Shown here piece by piece: positions 1-8,172 of a stretch of DNA of 64,000 nt. The stretch is from Idiomarina tyrosinivorans. GTDB lineage: Bacteria; Pseudomonadota; Gammaproteobacteria; Enterobacterales; Alteromonadaceae. The position numbers and the translations under genes were made by a program. The stretch covers positions 1-64,000 of the forward strand of contig NZ_PIQH01000006.1 of the NCBI RefSeq assembly GCF_003987475.1. Direction: 5' to 3'. How positions within the stretch are numbered: position 1 is the first letter of the stretch; every line of letters begins with the position of its first letter. The notes below the pieces were generated by a model, which saw only the letters and a list, made by a program, of their open reading frames with translations, ran no database searches and was not told the origin of the DNA.

Positions 1-30
1 TGAATCGCGTAGCGCGCGGCTGAGAGACAT

Positions 31-67
31 AAAAAAACTCCAGTGACAGTTACTATCACTGGAGTTT
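31..67 (-). terminator. Rho-independent terminator after mdh
   Basis: A perfect 12-bp inverted repeat (35-46 with 56-67, 9-nt loop) is followed on the minus strand by seven T residues (A run at 31-37). It lies about 100 bp past the mdh stop and is oriented to end leftward transcription. Nothing else is recognisable between position 1 and mdh. Confidence 0.85.
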
Positions 68-169
68 GACAGCTCCACTTGATCGGTCAATGGATCGCTA
101 AATTATTTCTTAACTGATCAGCATTGCGCTGCTATAGCGGGCTTTTTTAAGGCTAAAACTTGTTTGGGT

Positions 170-1751: not shown

Positions 1752-2701
1752 GCCGTCTGGCTTTCTGAGTCTGTCGCCGGTTGACCATGTTTCAGTAAAA
1801 AGGTCGGCGAAGGGATAAAAAAGCTGGCGTTGGTGACTGCTTGGGTAAAATCCAGTAGCGGATCGTAATCGCCCTGGCTGTCGGCGTAGTAACGGCGCTT
1901 CAGCCACTCCACCACTTTTTTCGGCTGGTTGCTGCAATACATTGCCAGCAGACCCTGTTCACGCAGATCACCCCACGGCATGTTTTGCCGCAACAGCGGA
2001 ATAGGTTGTTCATTTTGGTCCAATAAGCGCGTTTTCGAGGCATGGGTCACACTCTCGATTTCCGCCTCAGACAAACGCTCACCCGAGACTTTCTCCCGCC
2101 CCATCAACTGTTCTTGACGTTGCGGACCAATATGTTCCCACCGGCGCAGGTCATGGCGGAACTTCTGCAACAACAAATAACTGCCAGCCGCAAACGCTGG
2201 CTCTTCGCTGGCGTTCACTAACGCAACTTCGCGTTTACGCAGGCCACGCGGATTGTCTGGCGCATCGATAAAACCTAACAGATCACGGCCGTCTAAATAA
2301 CGGAAGGTGCGGATTTGCTCAACAATCTCGATATCGTGTCCAAACCATTCTATGAGGGCTCTTGCCGCAAGAAAGTTGGCATCAAAGCGGTCTGAGCGAA
2401 TGTGTAACAGAATATCGAAGGGTTGCCGTGGCGCTTCGCGGTCGTCGTCACGCAGTTCTGGAAATGCTTGTAGGTACAGCGGGCGCTGCTCTGGGTAGAC
2501 GATATCCCAATAGTCACTGCCGATCGCGACAAAGCCATTAAGCATGGCCTCGGAAAAACGTTCGTCCAGTTCGTCGAGGATGATCGGCATTCTACCGAGT
2601 TTTCGCCGTAGTCCATCGACATCGTCGGTCATAACATTGCACAACAACGTAAGCCCGTGTAGGTTTGGCTCAGCACACACGCCAGTTTGCGCCTTTTGCA
2701 A
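1748..2701 (-). CDS. DyP-type (YfeX-like) haem peroxidase
   Basis: The product looks like a dye-decolorizing-type haem peroxidase of the cytosolic YfeX class, about 317 aa. It follows YfeX through the [12 protein letters not shown] segment and the distal haem motif GFIDAPDNP, where the catalytic Asp is kept but the usual GxxDG final Gly is Ala. The proximal His lies in SVTHASKTR, followed by a distal-type Arg in LLRQNMPWG. An ATG exists at 2722, but no ribosome-binding site precedes it. TTG at 2701 has GGAGA 6 bases upstream and gives the family-like N terminus (QTGVCAEP), so TTG is preferred. The physiological substrate cannot be read from sequence. Confidence 0.85.
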
Positions 2702-2721
2702 ATCGCATCTCCATTTGTACA

Positions 2722-2753
2722 TTGCGTAGCAAACAATGCATCATACAATGATG
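2722..2753 (+). promoter_or_regulatory. Putative promoter with overlapping palindrome
   Basis: TTGCGT (2722-2727) and TACAAT (2744-2749) are spaced 16 bp, 35 bp before the DUF885 ATG. The -10 is embedded in a 15-bp palindrome, CATCAT-ACA-ATGATG (2739-2753), which could be an operator. Confidence 0.45.
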
Positions 2754-2783
2754 TTATGACTAACGGAACCTCAAGGAAATACT

Positions 2784-4541
2784 ATGCGCCATTTGATGGT
2801 TTTACTGTGCCTTGCTGCACCTCTCAGCATGGTGGGTTGTGCCAGCACAACAAGCCAAGATTCATCTGCGAAAGCAACCACACAGCAGTCGCTAGACAGC
2901 CAATTTAGCCAACTTGCCGACCGCATTTGGGACGGACTGAGCGAGAGCGACCCGCGTGCACTTCCCGATATGTCAGCGGCGACGTTGGAACAGACATTTC
3001 AGCGCAATCAGGCGTGGTTGAATAAACTCGACAGTATCGATACCACCAAGCTGAGCCAACAGAACCAAATGAATTACGCGATGATTCGTTACGCGTTGGC
3101 CGATGCGGTTGACCGTTATCGTTTTCATGACCACTACATGCCATTAACTTCAGAGGGCGGTTTTCATACCGAGTTGGCATTTATGCCAAGCTCAACGGCC
3201 TTTCATAAGCGCCAAGACTATGAGGACTACCTGGCTAAGCTACAAACCATTCCACGTTATATGGAACAACAAACCGCGTGGTTAAAAAAGGGCATTGAAG
3301 AAGGTTTTACCCAGCCAGCGGCAGCAATGAAAGGCTTTGAAGAAAGTATTGCCGCTTATATTGTGCAACGCCCACAAGATAGCGTGTTTTACGACCCCTT
3401 CGAAAAACGCCCTGACAGCATTAACCCAGTAGACTGGGCCTTACTGCAAGAACAGGCCGCCGATATCATTGATAACCAAGTGATGCCGGCTTATGACGAC
3501 TATTTTACCTTTATGGTTACCGAATATTTGCCAAACTGCCGCGACAGCATTGGTGCCAGTGAGTTACCTAACGGAAGCGCTTGGTACAATAACCGCATCA
3601 TGCATTACACCACATTGGATTTAAGCGCCGAACAAATCCACCAAATTGGTCTGCAAGAAGTGGCACGCATCCGTGCAGAAATGGATACCATTATTGAAAA
3701 ACTGGATTTCAAAGGCAGCTTTGCTGATTTCGTTAATTTCTTGCGAACCGATAAACGTTTCTACCCACAAAGCGCTGATGAATTGATGCGCACGGCAACC
3801 TACATTGCCAAAAAAATGGACGGTAAGCTATTGACCCTGTTCAATAAATTACCGCGCAAACCGTATGGTGTGGAGCCGGTTCCGGCAGAAATCGCACCGA
3901 AATACACTACTGGCCGTTATAAAGATCCTACCCGCGCTGATGAGCCCGGCATGTATTGGGTGAATACCTACGCGTTAGATCGCCGGCCGCTATACCAAAT
4001 GGAAGCATTGACCTTCCACGAGGCAGTGCCCGGGCACCATATACAAGTATCACTCGCGCTAGAAATGGATGACCTACCCGCTTACCGGCAGAACACCTAT
4101 ATTTCGGCCTTCGGTGAAGGTTGGGGTCTGTATGCCGAGTACCTAGGTTTAGAGGCCGGATTCTACCAAGACCCGTACAGCAACTTCGGGCGGTTAAGCT
4201 ATGAAATGTGGCGCGCCGCAAGGCTAGTGGTAGATACCGGTATGCATGCTATGGGCTGGAGCCGCCAACAAGCCATCGATTACATGGCAGAAAATACCGC
4301 ATTATCACTGCACAATTGCACCACAGAAATCGATCGCTATATCACCTGGCCAGCGCAAGCACTGTCTTACAAACTCGGCGAACTCACCATTAAACGCTTG
4401 CGTAACGAAGCCGAGGAAGCGCTCGGCGAAGACTTTGATGTGCGTGATTTCCACGACGCAGTGCTAGAAAACGGCAGTATTCCACTGCAAATGCTCGAGC
4501 AACACATCCGCCAGTGGATCGCAAAGCAAAAATCCGCGTAG
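2784..4541 (+). CDS. DUF885 family lipoprotein, putative metallopeptidase
   Basis: This 585-aa protein starts with a lipoprotein signal (hydrophobic residues 4-16, lipobox MVGC with Cys19), so it is probably anchored in the periplasm or outer membrane. The body is a DUF885 domain. The family-specific HEAVPGHH motif begins at about residue 412, an HExxH-like arrangement expected to bind zinc, and FGEGWGLYAE follows. DUF885 proteins are generally thought to be metallopeptidases, but substrates are unknown, so function is inferred. AAGGA precedes the ATG. It is monocistronic: divergent from the peroxidase and followed by the foldback element. Confidence 0.88.
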   Translation: MRHLMVLLCLAAPLSMVGCASTTSQDSSAKATTQQSLDSQFSQLADRIWDGLSESDPRALPDMSAATLEQTFQRNQAWLNKLDSIDTTKLSQQNQMNYAMIRYALADAVDRYRFHDHYMPLTSEGGFHTELAFMPSSTAFHKRQDYEDYLAKLQTIPRYMEQQTAWLKKGIEEGFTQPAAAMKGFEESIAAYIVQRPQDSVFYDPFEKRPDSINPVDWALLQEQAADIIDNQVMPAYDDYFTFMVTEYLPNCRDSIGASELPNGSAWYNNRIMHYTTLDLSAEQIHQIGLQEVARIRAEMDTIIEKLDFKGSFADFVNFLRTDKRFYPQSADELMRTATYIAKKMDGKLLTLFNKLPRKPYGVEPVPAEIAPKYTTGRYKDPTRADEPGMYWVNTYALDRRPLYQMEALTFHEAVPGHHIQVSLALEMDDLPAYRQNTYISAFGEGWGLYAEYLGLEAGFYQDPYSNFGRLSYEMWRAARLVVDTGMHAMGWSRQQAIDYMAENTALSLHNCTTEIDRYITWPAQALSYKLGELTIKRLRNEAEEALGEDFDVRDFHDAVLENGSIPLQMLEQHIRQWIAKQKSA

Positions 4542-4625
4542 CGGCATCGTAACTCGGTAGCGCACTCGTCCCGCCAAGGCCGCTAATTCTTTACTGCGGC
4601 CGGGGCTTGGGCTCGCGGCAGGCTC

Positions 4626-4950
4626 GGGATTGGTTGCTCTCTACCACGGCGATTAGCTTGGGTGGGTCGGCATCGTGAGGGGCTGGAGGGCGCTTGATGT
4701 GTAGGCGCTTGGTAGAGTCATTGCACGGCACCCCGCCGGTTCACGAAGCTGGGGAAAAAGCCGCTCAAGCTCATCCATGAGGCGCTTAGTCTCCGGCCGT
4801 CCATGGCCGGAGATACTTTTTCCCCAGCTTCGCGCCCCAACGTTGTGCGTTAAATGTAGGAGAAGTCGCGCCTACACCCCAAGCTTAGGGCTACGGAGAA
4901 GCGATGCCGATACAACACCGAGCGCGCCGTGGCAGAGAACAACCAACCCC
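4626..4950. repeat. Foldback hairpin A
   Basis: This long imperfect palindrome is centred near 4788. Paired blocks from outside inwards are 4626-4651 with 4925-4950 (imperfect), 4667-4675 with 4902-4910 (9 bp perfect), 4699-4708 with 4868-4877 (10 bp perfect) and 4744-4760 with 4816-4832 (17 bp perfect). The tip carries two small stems: CTCAT/ATGAG (4770-4781) and a 9-bp TCTCCGGCC stem (4790-4798 with 4805-4813). It has the same architecture as hairpin B, in inverted orientation. Confidence 0.78.
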
Positions 4951-5002
4951 AAACAGGCTGTCTGAAGCTAATAGATAGAAGCGAGTAGATAAAGGCGGAT
5001 AC

Positions 5003-5307
5003 TTCTTTACTGCGGCTTTCCTCGATGGTGGGCGGCATCGCTTCTCCGCACCTATTTGACTCGGGGTGTGGGCGCGTTTACCTCGATATTGATTGGCGTC
5101 TCGTTGGGGCGCGGGGGCTCCGGTAAAAAGCATCTCTGGCCAGGGAGGGCCAGAGACTGAGCGGCCATGGATGGCTCGAGCGTCTTTTTACCGGAGGCAC
5201 CGTGAACCGACGGGACGCTAAGCACTCACCACCCTAGCGCCCACACCCCGAGCCTTCCCCCAACCCTGACGATGCCGCGAACCCAAGTTAACCGCCGCAG
5301 TAAAGAA
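5003..5307. repeat. Foldback hairpin B
   Basis: Paired blocks from outside inwards are 5003-5016 with 5294-5307 (14 bp perfect), 5033-5040 with 5270-5277 (8 bp), 5060-5075 with 5237-5252 (16 bp perfect) and 5118-5130 with 5184-5196 (13 bp perfect). The tip has a 9-bp TCTCTGGCC stem (5133-5141 with 5148-5156) and a small stem around CATGGATG (about 5165-5175). Against hairpin A, the tip stems differ in sequence but keep pairing, which implies selection on the folded form. Confidence 0.8.
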
Positions 5308-5318
5308 TTGGCAGGCAC

Positions 5319-5345
5319 AAAAAAGCCCGCGGCTGCGGGCTTTTT
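5319..5345 (-). terminator. Bidirectional terminator after acnB
   Basis: GCCCGC and GCGGGC (5325-5330, 5335-5340) pair around a GGCT loop. A6 on the left and T5 on the right make a terminator that works in either direction. It lies 16 bp past the acnB stop and also separates acnB from the foldback element. Confidence 0.9.
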
Positions 5346-5360
5346 GCTTAGTGCTTACGC

Positions 5361-7949
5361 TTAAGCAACGTTAATGGTAGGAATGATATTTTCCTTCGCC
5401 GCTTTTTCGGCGTTGCGGAATTCTTCCATGCGGTCAAAGTTCAAGTATTGGTAAACTTCGCCTGCCATTGCATTGATATCGCTTGCGTATTGTAAGTACT
5501 CTTCTGGTGTCGGCAAGCGACCCACAATTGCACCTACTGCGGCTAATTCAGCCGAGGTTAAGTAAACATTCGCGCCGTCACCGAGACGGTTTGGGAAGTT
5601 ACGGGTAGACGTCGACAATACCGTGGCGCCGGCTTCTACTCGTGCTTGGTTACCCATGCACAATGAACAACCTGGCATTTCGGTACGCACGCCATTGCGG
5701 CTGTAGATATCGTAATAGCCTTCGCTTTCTAATTGCGCTTTATCCATTTTGGTCGGCGGCGCAATCCACAAGCGGGTATTCAATGGGTCGCTGTTCTTCT
5801 CCAGCAACTTACCTGCGGCACGGAAGTGACCGATGTTGGTCATGCACGAACCGATGAAGACTTCGTCAACTTTATCGCCAGCAACTTCGCTCAAGAATTT
5901 GGCGTCGTCTGGATCGTTCGGGCAACAAACGATTGGCTCTTTGATATCGTTCAAGTCGATCTCGATAACCGCTGCGTATTCCGCGTCTTTATCGGCACGG
6001 GTTAACTGCGGGTTCTCTAACCACTCTTCCATCTTCCGTGCACGGCGCTCAAGTGTGCGCGCATCGCCATAACCTTCGTTGATCATCCAACGTAGCATGG
6101 TGATGTTAGAGCGTAGGTATTCGGCCACTGATTGTTCTGACAAATCAATGGTACAGCCCGCTGCTGAACGTTCTGCTGATGCATCTGACAGTTCGAATGC
6201 TTGCTCTACGGTTAAGTGGTTCAAACCTTCGATTTCAAGAATACGGCCAGAGAAGATATTCTTCTTACCGCGTTTCTCAACGGTTAATAGGCCCTCTTTT
6301 ATGGCAAATGCAGGGATTGCATGAACCAAGTCGCGCAGCGTGATGCCTGGCTGCATTTCGCCTTTAAAGCGTACCAATACAGACTCTGGCATATCCAATG
6401 GCATCACCCCTGTTGCCGCCGCAAACGCGACTAAACCCGAACCGGCTGGGAATGAGATACCTAATGGGAAACGCGTGTGTGAGTCACCACCTGTACCGAC
6501 GGTGTCTGGCAACAACATACGGTTCAACCAGCTGTGGATGATACCGTCACCTGGACGCAACGATACACCACCACGGTTCATAATGAAGTCTGGCAAGGTG
6601 TGTTGGGTTTCAACGTCTACCGGTTTTGGATACGCCGCGGTGTGGCAGAATGACTGCATCACTAAGTCTGAGTTAAAGCCCAGGCAAGCCAAGTCTTTCA
6701 ACTCGTCACGGGTCATTGGCCCGGTGGTGTCTTGTGAGCCTACGGTCGTCATTTTCGGTTCACAGTATGTGCCTGGACGAACGCCTTCCATACCACAGGC
6801 TTTACCCACCAATTTCTGCGCTAAAGAATAGCCTGCGCCTGAGTCTGCGGGCTGCTCAGGTTTCAAAAACAGCTCAGAAGCTCCTAAACCTAAGCACTCA
6901 CGTGCTTTTTCAGTTAACCCACGGCCGATAATCAGATTGATACGGCCACCGGCGCGCACTTCATCTAAGATCACACGAGAGGCGTAGTCGTATTCTGCGA
7001 TCACTTCGCCTGCTTCGTTTTCAATTTTACCTTGATACGGGTAAATGGTGATCACATCACCCATGTTCATTTTTTCAACGTCGGCTTCGAACACCAACGC
7101 ACCAGCGTCTTTCATGGTGTTGAAGAAAATTGGCGCAACTTTAGAGCCAATGCAGATACCGCCTGCACGTTTGTTTGGTGTACCTGGCATATCTTCACCG
7201 ATGTACCATAGTACCGAGTTAGTCGCCGATTTACGCGACGAGCCAGTACCGACAACGTCACCAACAAACGCCACAGGATGGCCTTTTTGCTTCAGTTCGT
7301 CGATCTGTTTTGCCGCATCGGTCACGCCTTCACGCGGCATTTTGTACATGGCTTTGGCGTGCAAAGGAATGTCTGGACGTGACCAAGCGTCAGGCGCTGG
7401 AGACAGGTCATCGGTGTTGGTTTCACCGGTCACTTTAAACACGGATGCTTTGATTTGTTCTGGCATCTTGTCACGGCCAGTGAACCACTCGCCTTCGGCC
7501 CAAGATTCGATGACTTCTTTTGCCAGCTCATTGCCAGCTTTCATCTTCTCTTCCACATCGTGGAAAGCATCGAACATCAAAATAGTGTGCTTTAATTCTT
7601 CAGCCGCCAAACGGCTAAGTTCTGCGTCGTCTAATAACGCCACTAGGGTTTCGATATTATAGCCGCCGTGCATATTGCCCAACAATTTTACGGCGTGCTC
7701 TTTTGAGATAACCGGGGAGTTTACTTCGCCTTTTACAATAGCGCTTAAAAAGCCTGCTTTCACATAGGCCGCTTCGTCTACACCCGGCGGTACACGCTCT
7801 GCTAACAACTCAACCAAAAACGCTTCTTCACCCGCAGGTGGATTTTTTAGAAGCTCAACCAGATCGGCCACTTGTTCTGCTGTTAGTGGCTTTGGTGGGA
7901 TACCTTCTGCGGCACGCTCTTCTACGTGCTGGCGATACTCTTTAAGCAC
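5361..7949 (-). CDS. acnB: Aconitate hydratase B
   Basis: This TCA-cycle [4Fe-4S] enzyme interconverts citrate and isocitrate; in relatives the apo-form also binds mRNA. The protein is about 862 aa (E. coli 865) and collinear with AcnB. It has an N-terminal HEAT-like domain ([21 protein letters not shown]), a swivel domain with [19 protein letters not shown], and cluster-binding cysteines in [10 protein letters not shown] and PGCSLCMGN. The open frame extends to a TTG at 7991. GTG at 7949 gives the family N terminus (M)[15 protein letters not shown] and has GAAGAGG about 9 bases upstream, so GTG is chosen. Confidence 0.97.
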
Positions 7950-8172
7950 TCTCACTACCTCTTCGTTAAGGACGAAAAAATTTACGCGCAATTATAGGGG
8001 GTTTTCCGTGAAATTCCTATGACAGTCACGGCTTCAGAGGGCTATATCTGGCATAAGTGTGATGAATGGTAGCAGCGACATACTTGGTTACAACTGAATG
8101 TTCGCCAACACAACCTTTTCTATTTTGCTGACGACTAAACTAATGAACGGGCAAACGAGGGAGGGCCTCATC

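Follow-up and report, generated by a model that had tools for sequence, protein, structure and literature searches.

A multi-copy composite palindrome between convergent genes of Idiomarina tyrosinivorans with paired CANGGANG loops, a probable RNA decoy or 3'-end element that would bind CsrA

The window analysed here, a stretch of 64,000 nucleotides from Idiomarina tyrosinivorans, carries between two convergent genes a 725-bp palindromic foldback element that is real, multi-copy and structurally conserved and that, as far as its sequence can tell, probably acts as an RNA decoy or 3'-end element that binds CsrA. Its two modules, A and B, follow a common plan of a stem and then two short hairpins, and each of them presents two CANGGANG loops, on opposite strands in the two modules. 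It is this most telling feature that a preliminary description of the element had missed. CANGGANG is the core of the CsrA/RsmA consensus, and the sequence gives the CsrA reading good motivation. The best explanation overall would be a composite of the YPAL type that carries CsrA-ligand loops and has been kept by selection on its folded strand, a reading that we put forward tentatively and rate just short of even. The features in question are:

2784..4541, plus strand: left convergent gene, 585 aa, DUF885-like by eye (ORF list)
4585..5309, no strand assigned: whole composite element (genome copies; folding z -16)
4585..4600, plus strand: left terminal inverted repeat, AATTCTTTACTGCGGC (inverted-repeat search, 16 bp perfect)
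4626..4950, minus strand: module A, long hairpin with GGA loops on the minus strand (fold energy by strand)
4724..4853, minus strand: core of module A (R2 51.5 bits, E 5.4e-14; TwoAYGGAY 29.6 bits)
4772..4779, minus strand: module A loop CATGGATG, fits CANGGANG, identical in 12 of 12 aligned copies
4798..4805, minus strand: module A loop CATGGACG, fits CANGGANG, identical in 12 of 12 aligned copies
4951..5002, no strand assigned: spacer separating modules A and B, most variable part (12 copies differ in 30 of 52 columns)
5003..5307, plus strand: module B, long hairpin with GGA loops on the plus strand (fold energy by strand)
5094..5221, plus strand: core of module B (R2 32.8 bits, E 4.6e-8; TwoAYGGAY 26.1 bits)
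5141..5148, plus strand: module B loop CAGGGAGG, fits CANGGANG, identical in 12 of 12 aligned copies
5166..5173, plus strand: module B loop CATGGATG, fits CANGGANG, identical in 11 of 12 aligned copies
5294..5309, minus strand: right terminal inverted repeat, paired with 4585..4600
5320..5345, no strand assigned: two-way intrinsic terminator separating the element from acnB (identified in the sequence)
5361..7991, minus strand: right convergent gene, acnB, aconitate hydratase 2 (TIGR00117 above cut-off)

The preliminary description had drawn the element as a gene-free foldback with perfect 16-bp inverted ends and two long hairpins, which are inverted homologues of each other and can fold separately or as one giant hairpin, and all of this was borne out. 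The end-to-end inverted pair extends to 19 nt at 95% in the inverted-repeat search, the element and its reverse complement align with 68% identity, and the longest open reading frame listed inside it has a mere 80 aa. The palindromes are imperfect, with 71-79% complementarity in the longest arm pairs and the best pairing at the tips. Compared with 60 dinucleotide shuffles, the RNA of the whole element folds with z-scores of -16.1 (plus) and -15.4 (minus), module A on the minus strand with -10.8 and module B on the plus strand with -10.7; folded as DNA, the element reaches z -13.2, which none of 20 shuffles equals. Module A yields -184.6 on the minus versus -164.7 on the plus strand, and module B -168.5 on the plus versus -155.0 on the minus strand. 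The best fold of the whole plus-strand RNA is a single giant hairpin of -405.0 kcal/mol, compared with a total of about -333 kcal/mol for the two modules folded apart.

The genome copy search that the preliminary description had proposed returned, from an assembly of 2.43 Mb in 21 contigs, 11 further near-full copies (90-95% identity) and 5 partial ones, about 17 in total, the whole-element matches being copies or fragments. Four of the five partial copies sit at contig starts; since the assembly seems to break at the element repeat, the true copy number may exceed this count. Among the 12 aligned copies, 3 of 105 and 5 of 107 columns vary in the two tips (8 of 212 together) and 76 of 405 in the outer arms; the spacer and the left end (4585-4640, 38 of 56 columns) are the most variable parts, and the terminal inverted repeats are less regular in the other copies than in that of the window. 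Whereas most modules of relatives are closest to a same-neighbour module of another species, these copies resemble one another, so that the I. tyrosinivorans lineage either spread its element set anew or homogenised it. The genome has 12 exact matches to GCGGGCTTTTTTGTGCC, and in 10 cases an element copy lies no more than 100 bases away, on either side. The terminator region at 5310-5345 has the tail GTGCC, and this GTGCC-tailed terminator possibly serves as target or belongs to the element as an outer part. A separate repeat at the contig start (window 1-148) recurs at the start of contig C3 (L108) and at the end of C18, the contig of the window (L111), with 96.6% identity; it is multi-copy at contig ends and stops beside a terminator that adjoins element copies.

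Relatives of the modules were reached by way of the Rfam family TwoAYGGAY (RF01731). In the own genome, all 26 matches of this model at E<=1 lie within elements and all remain below its cut-off of 43 bits; within the genus, matches at E<=0.1 occur in 13 of 19 genomes including the own one, none reaching the cut-off, and the 19 matching sequences of relatives that were examined form stable hairpins of 116-143 nt. From these we built model R2, which holds no sequence of the window and avoids the circularity that partly affects own-genome scores of model R1, made from the same 19 hairpins plus modules A and B (the 21-sequence seed). R2 scores the two window modules at 51.5 and 32.8 bits, with the next-best match in the window at 10.7, and recovers a module at all 17 places in the own genome. 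R1 finds 8-33 matches per genome, part of which read one hairpin a second time in antisense, in 14 of the 19 genus genomes and none in the other five. With at most eight candidates scored per genome, modules were found in at least 157 of 395 genomes and at least 20 of 52 genera of the family (R1, E<=1e-6), and in at least 84 of 394 genomes and at least 23 of 115 genera of the order, family included (R1, E<=1e-5). DNA similarity across 98 relatives' genomes, including the own one, gave outside the latter just 46-nt matches in two; finding relatives required the structure. Plasmids and phages, searched by DNA similarity, and viral contigs, searched with a single tip pattern, returned no match. 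The doubt raised in the preliminary description, that shuffled sequence might fold equally well and other genomes lack copies, is thereby removed, as shuffles fold far worse and related modules exist elsewhere.

CANGGANG is fitted by all four loops of the window and by 47 of 48 loops over the 12 own copies, where copy L110 has CATGGATC at the loop corresponding to 5166..5173, and the loop starts lie 26 nt apart in module A and 25 nt in module B. In four single-contig genomes of the genus, 91 matches, less 12 at <=30 bits that are mostly antisense readings of the palindrome, leave 79 modules, of which 68 have two such loops, two have three and nine have one. Among the 70 modules with at least two, the loops are spaced by 24 or 25 nt in 71 of 72 cases. 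At least two loops are also present in 46 of 47 modules from other genera and families, a count that takes 27 of the 29 matches from other families and all but three weak ones (L203) of the 23 from other genera. In the seed, both loops belong to the invariant columns while the N positions of CANGGANG vary; the models contain the loops, so that loops in the matches are partly expected, whereas the variation at the N positions is not built in. If the invariant part is a CsrA ligand, loops that stay fixed while stems change by paired substitutions are what would be expected. A csrA gene was found in all 19 genus genomes, which favours the CsrA reading; that five of these have csrA and yet are devoid of any module counts against it. 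A single csrA copy is present in 9 of 14 carriers, and all 5 non-carriers have at least two (Fisher p 0.03), a comparison on which we do not rely because the genomes are related.

Paired changes in the stems are frequent. Both sides of a pair have changed in 161 cells of the seed versus 45.5 after shuffling, in 286 versus 80.5 for the other genera (all 23 matches) and in 413 versus 128 for the other families (all 29 matches). None of 500 shuffles attains any of these counts, and sliding the partner by 1-3 columns leaves at most 52, 62 and 82 paired changes, respectively; the latter two alignments were fitted to the model and lean to its structure, and relatedness inflates all such counts. This strong covariation supports the suggestion of the preliminary description that the element could be a structured RNA gene; paired changes could also arise by repair templated from the other arm of the palindrome. 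The mispairs further distinguish the strands. On the GGA strand, G-U exceeds A-C by 117:26 in the fitted alignment of the 79 modules and by 24:6 in that of the other genera (L203 matches kept), and symmetric scoring gives 177:83 for 67 of the 79 genus modules and 68:26 for 43 of 44 modules from other genera and families (24 of the latter group's matches included, L203 left out). The GGA strand is also the better-folding one in 63 of the 79 genus modules. The window modules themselves have no such bias (2:5 and 4:5 in the seed alignment), and both nevertheless fold better on the GGA strand. Selection on RNA or single-stranded DNA of the GGA strand would leave a G-U bias of this kind, and strand-biased mutation may be another source of it.

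As for location, convergent genes flank nine of the ten own copies that have ORFs called on both sides, the remaining one (L107) lying between two plus-strand ORFs; beside each of the seven other copies, close to contig ends, a single gene is called whose 3' end faces the copy, at a distance of 446 bases in the case of L108. Ten neighbouring proteins were compared with NCBIfam, one of them being without a family; those above the cut-offs include acnB, acnA, citrate synthase, FadE, AstB, PurF and TyrS, an iron superoxide dismutase scores slightly below, and for the 585-aa gene to the left of the window element no family is named at E<=1e-20. Of 58 module sites in the four genus genomes, 33 lie in convergent and 25 in codirectional gaps and none in a divergent one, compared with 17, 85 and 34 for the other gaps of the same stretches (with ORFs as called here, and orthologous sites not being independent). 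The flanks of several relatives (L159, L168, L161, L162, L178) look rich in central metabolism by eye, with mdh, gapA, guaA, purL and sucD. Of the 58 genus sites, 51 have the GGA strand antisense to the nearest facing gene, whose own mRNA therefore lacks the loops of the nearest module. The GGA strand is antisense at 10 and sense at 4 of 14 sites in other genera, and antisense at 8, sense at 7 and without a facing gene at 5 of 20 sites in other families. A placement of the GGA loops on the mRNA strand of the neighbour was accordingly rejected, the genus being mostly antisense and the other families following no rule. Sites with several modules have the minus-then-plus order of the window in 20 of 21 cases and plus-plus in one. 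In a genome of another family (L236, bases 2131-3267), five modules are arrayed in one gap, including plus-then-minus pairs; in other relatives (L157, L164, L167, L170), short palindromes GTAGCCTGATGT..ACATCAGGTG, resembling GTAG-tagged REPs, adjoin modules; and at L217 (bases 2439-3004) three consecutive RtT RNA matches by a tRNA adjoin a module pair.

We infer from these sequence features how the element might be transcribed, bind CsrA, exert a regulatory effect and move. Modules A and B would face outward between the two convergent genes, and the RNA of each would form a long stem with two short hairpins showing CANGGANG loops about 25 nt apart, a pair that is a plausible ligand for one CsrA dimer. 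The invariant part resembles a dual CsrA ligand that is presented by the stem. Read-in from the left gene would expose B and that from the right gene A, a promoter that escaped the scan being another possible source, and an RNA spanning both modules could form the giant hairpin and hide the loops. Copies may have been spread by some mobility system and have persisted by selection on the folded strand, which would titrate CsrA or link the fate of neighbouring transcripts to it. Several observations count against this explanation, namely the mostly antisense position of the GGA strand in the genus, the modelling of Ysr224 on the other strand, the lack of a G-U bias in the two window modules, the two-way terminator that separates the element from acnB, and a scan of 4500-5400 that found no sigma-70-like promoter, the one promoter type that it covered.

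The main rival of the CsrA reading, to which we assign roughly a one-in-four chance, is a selfish miniature DNA element whose folded single strand is recognised by a strand-specific transposase, the likeness to CsrA sites being accidental and the position at gene 3' ends resulting from target choice and loss elsewhere. A single-stranded DNA substrate would also predict the strand bias, a conserved terminator adjoins many copies, and the copies are dispersed with inverted ends, as expected of the MITE-like element that the preliminary description had considered; the accessible part of PMC2229807 describes its kin YPAL as miniature insertions of about 168 bp with target duplications of 3-26 bp. 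What stands of the MITE proposal is this dispersed family with its inverted ends and YPAL/RU-2 kinship, whereas the search for a target duplication, a clean empty site or a transposase found none. No target duplication is visible by eye in the 12 aligned own copies, and the five acnB loci of other species that lack a module also have other neighbours, so that they offer no like-for-like comparison. Y1 (RAYT) transposase genes occur in 11 of 19 genus genomes; 7 of the 14 carriers lack one and 4 of the 5 non-carriers have one. The Y1 transposase was rejected as the mover since its distribution does not match that of the modules. Furthermore, modules stay in place, with acnB as neighbour in six genomes and mdh (named by eye) in four. 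Among the 76 of 79 modules that score above 60 bits, 53 have their closest match in another species next to a homologue of their own neighbour gene, sites being taken as orthologous when one flanking protein or more was alike. The 33 same-neighbour pairs differ by 75 paired and 43 one-sided changes and by 45 broken pairs, and this prevalence of paired over broken suggests upkeep after insertion.

It is somewhat less probable, and in our judgement unlikely, that the element is a 3'-end stabiliser or terminator, a hairpin that guards or ends the adjacent mRNA on either strand, with loops that are not protein sites. The preference for gene 3' ends would follow directly from such a role, for which it also speaks that on the non-GGA strand of both A and B hairpin 1 is followed by CTTTTT and scores as a terminator, that Ysr224 is modelled on the non-GGA strand, and that YPAL may influence the stability of upstream transcripts according to the available text of PMC2229807. 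This role, however, leaves unexplained why two loops are fixed at CANGGANG with free N positions; the G-U bias points to the GGA strand instead, and 4 of the 20 sites in other families lie in divergent gaps. Lastly, a DNA-level site between convergent genes (a cruciform, gyrase or nucleoid-protein site) would fit the long palindromes found there and their good fold as DNA, but is very improbable, as a double-stranded role predicts no excess of G-U over A-C such as the 177:83 observed, and the chromosomal-architecture role suggested in the preliminary description drew no support beyond that position.

Among known systems, the CsrB/CsrC/RsmX-Z sRNAs share hairpin GGA loops with the element and it could bind CsrA as they do, but it has two loops per long stem, many dispersed copies and no sigma-70-like promoter found. 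The CsrB model has no match in the own genome and two weak ones in the 19 genus genomes, none above the cut-off; the best of the genus (G013:C4:12678-12986, 31.7 bits, below the cut-off) lies in a module-free genome. An Alteromonas strain has been reported to possess separate CsrB-like RNAs, according to the part of PMC5864184 that is accessible, which counts against the CsrA reading. REP/BIME repeats with RAYT are likewise dispersed palindromes at gene 3' ends, including inverted pairs, but the element is far longer and its presence does not track Y1 transposase genes.

At the Rfam gathering cut-offs, 12 module loci had no match and 18 more had only Ysr224 (RF02770), in three; sub-threshold miRNA and leader matches were judged to be chance. 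The three Ysr224 loci, from two genomes of another family, coincide with modules (L229, L230 and L232, 66-67 bits with R2), and weaker Ysr224 matches occur elsewhere. The family models the strand opposite the GGA loops, and window positions 4300-5600 have no match to it up to E 5 (family cut-off 70 bits). TwoAYGGAY resembles a module in having two hairpins with A-Y-GGA-Y-type loops, for which the window has AUGGAC and AUGGAU in A and AUGGAU and AGGGAG in B. It differs in that one B loop departs from this type with AGGGAG, that scores remain below its cut-off of 43 bits (own best 30, genus best 40) and that the window element is composite and repeated. The accessible part of Weinberg 2010 (PMC2864571) lists TwoAYGGAY as a probable RNA that is unlikely to be cis-regulatory, and in that of PMC4333381 Gardner's group proposes it, from loop matches, as a CsrA-binding RNA. 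In the literature searched, mostly outside subscription papers, YPAL is not joined to CsrA, TwoAYGGAY or Ysr224; one review (PMC9029176) mentions both Ysr224 and CsrA.

YPAL-like repeats have usually been viewed as mobile hairpins that perhaps stabilise mRNA. The YPAL/RU-2 miniature insertion sequences of Yersinia, reportedly described by De Gregorio in 2006, are reported to lie downstream of stop codons and near terminators and to be co-transcribed with the upstream gene, and the modules are also dispersed, at gene 3' ends and beside terminators. According to PMC2229807, YPAL sits at or adjoining dyad symmetry. The RU-2/YPAL repeat sequence printed by Delihas 2007 (PMC2759123, accessible part) also bears two CANGGANG loops at its tip, and it aligns to a module of the Idiomarina group (L121) with a score of 42.0 against a shuffled maximum of 19.5; directly against window modules A and B it scores a marginal 22.0 and 21.5, where shuffles reach up to 20.5 and 21.0. 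A homologous hairpin tip is supported by R2 too, as this model finds both window modules and the three Ysr224 loci. RU-2 has about 168 bp and one module, whereas the window element has 725 bp and two inverted modules. We therefore read the element as a composite of the YPAL type and not as YPAL proper. One could speculate, at perhaps a one-in-three chance, that YPAL, Ysr224, TwoAYGGAY and these modules constitute one mobile-RNA superfamily with a ready-made CsrA-dimer ligand that forms a distributed decoy network. If so, tens of copies per genome at gene ends, many of them of central metabolism, would act as CsrA decoys, and the composite of this species would carry a ligand per strand; transcription from either direction would then expose one of them, and a full-length transcript would hide both. 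Were the invariant part indeed a CsrA ligand, a mobile element would be seeding sites for a global regulator over many genera, and TwoAYGGAY, an RNA of unknown function, would gain a far larger family and a direct binding test.
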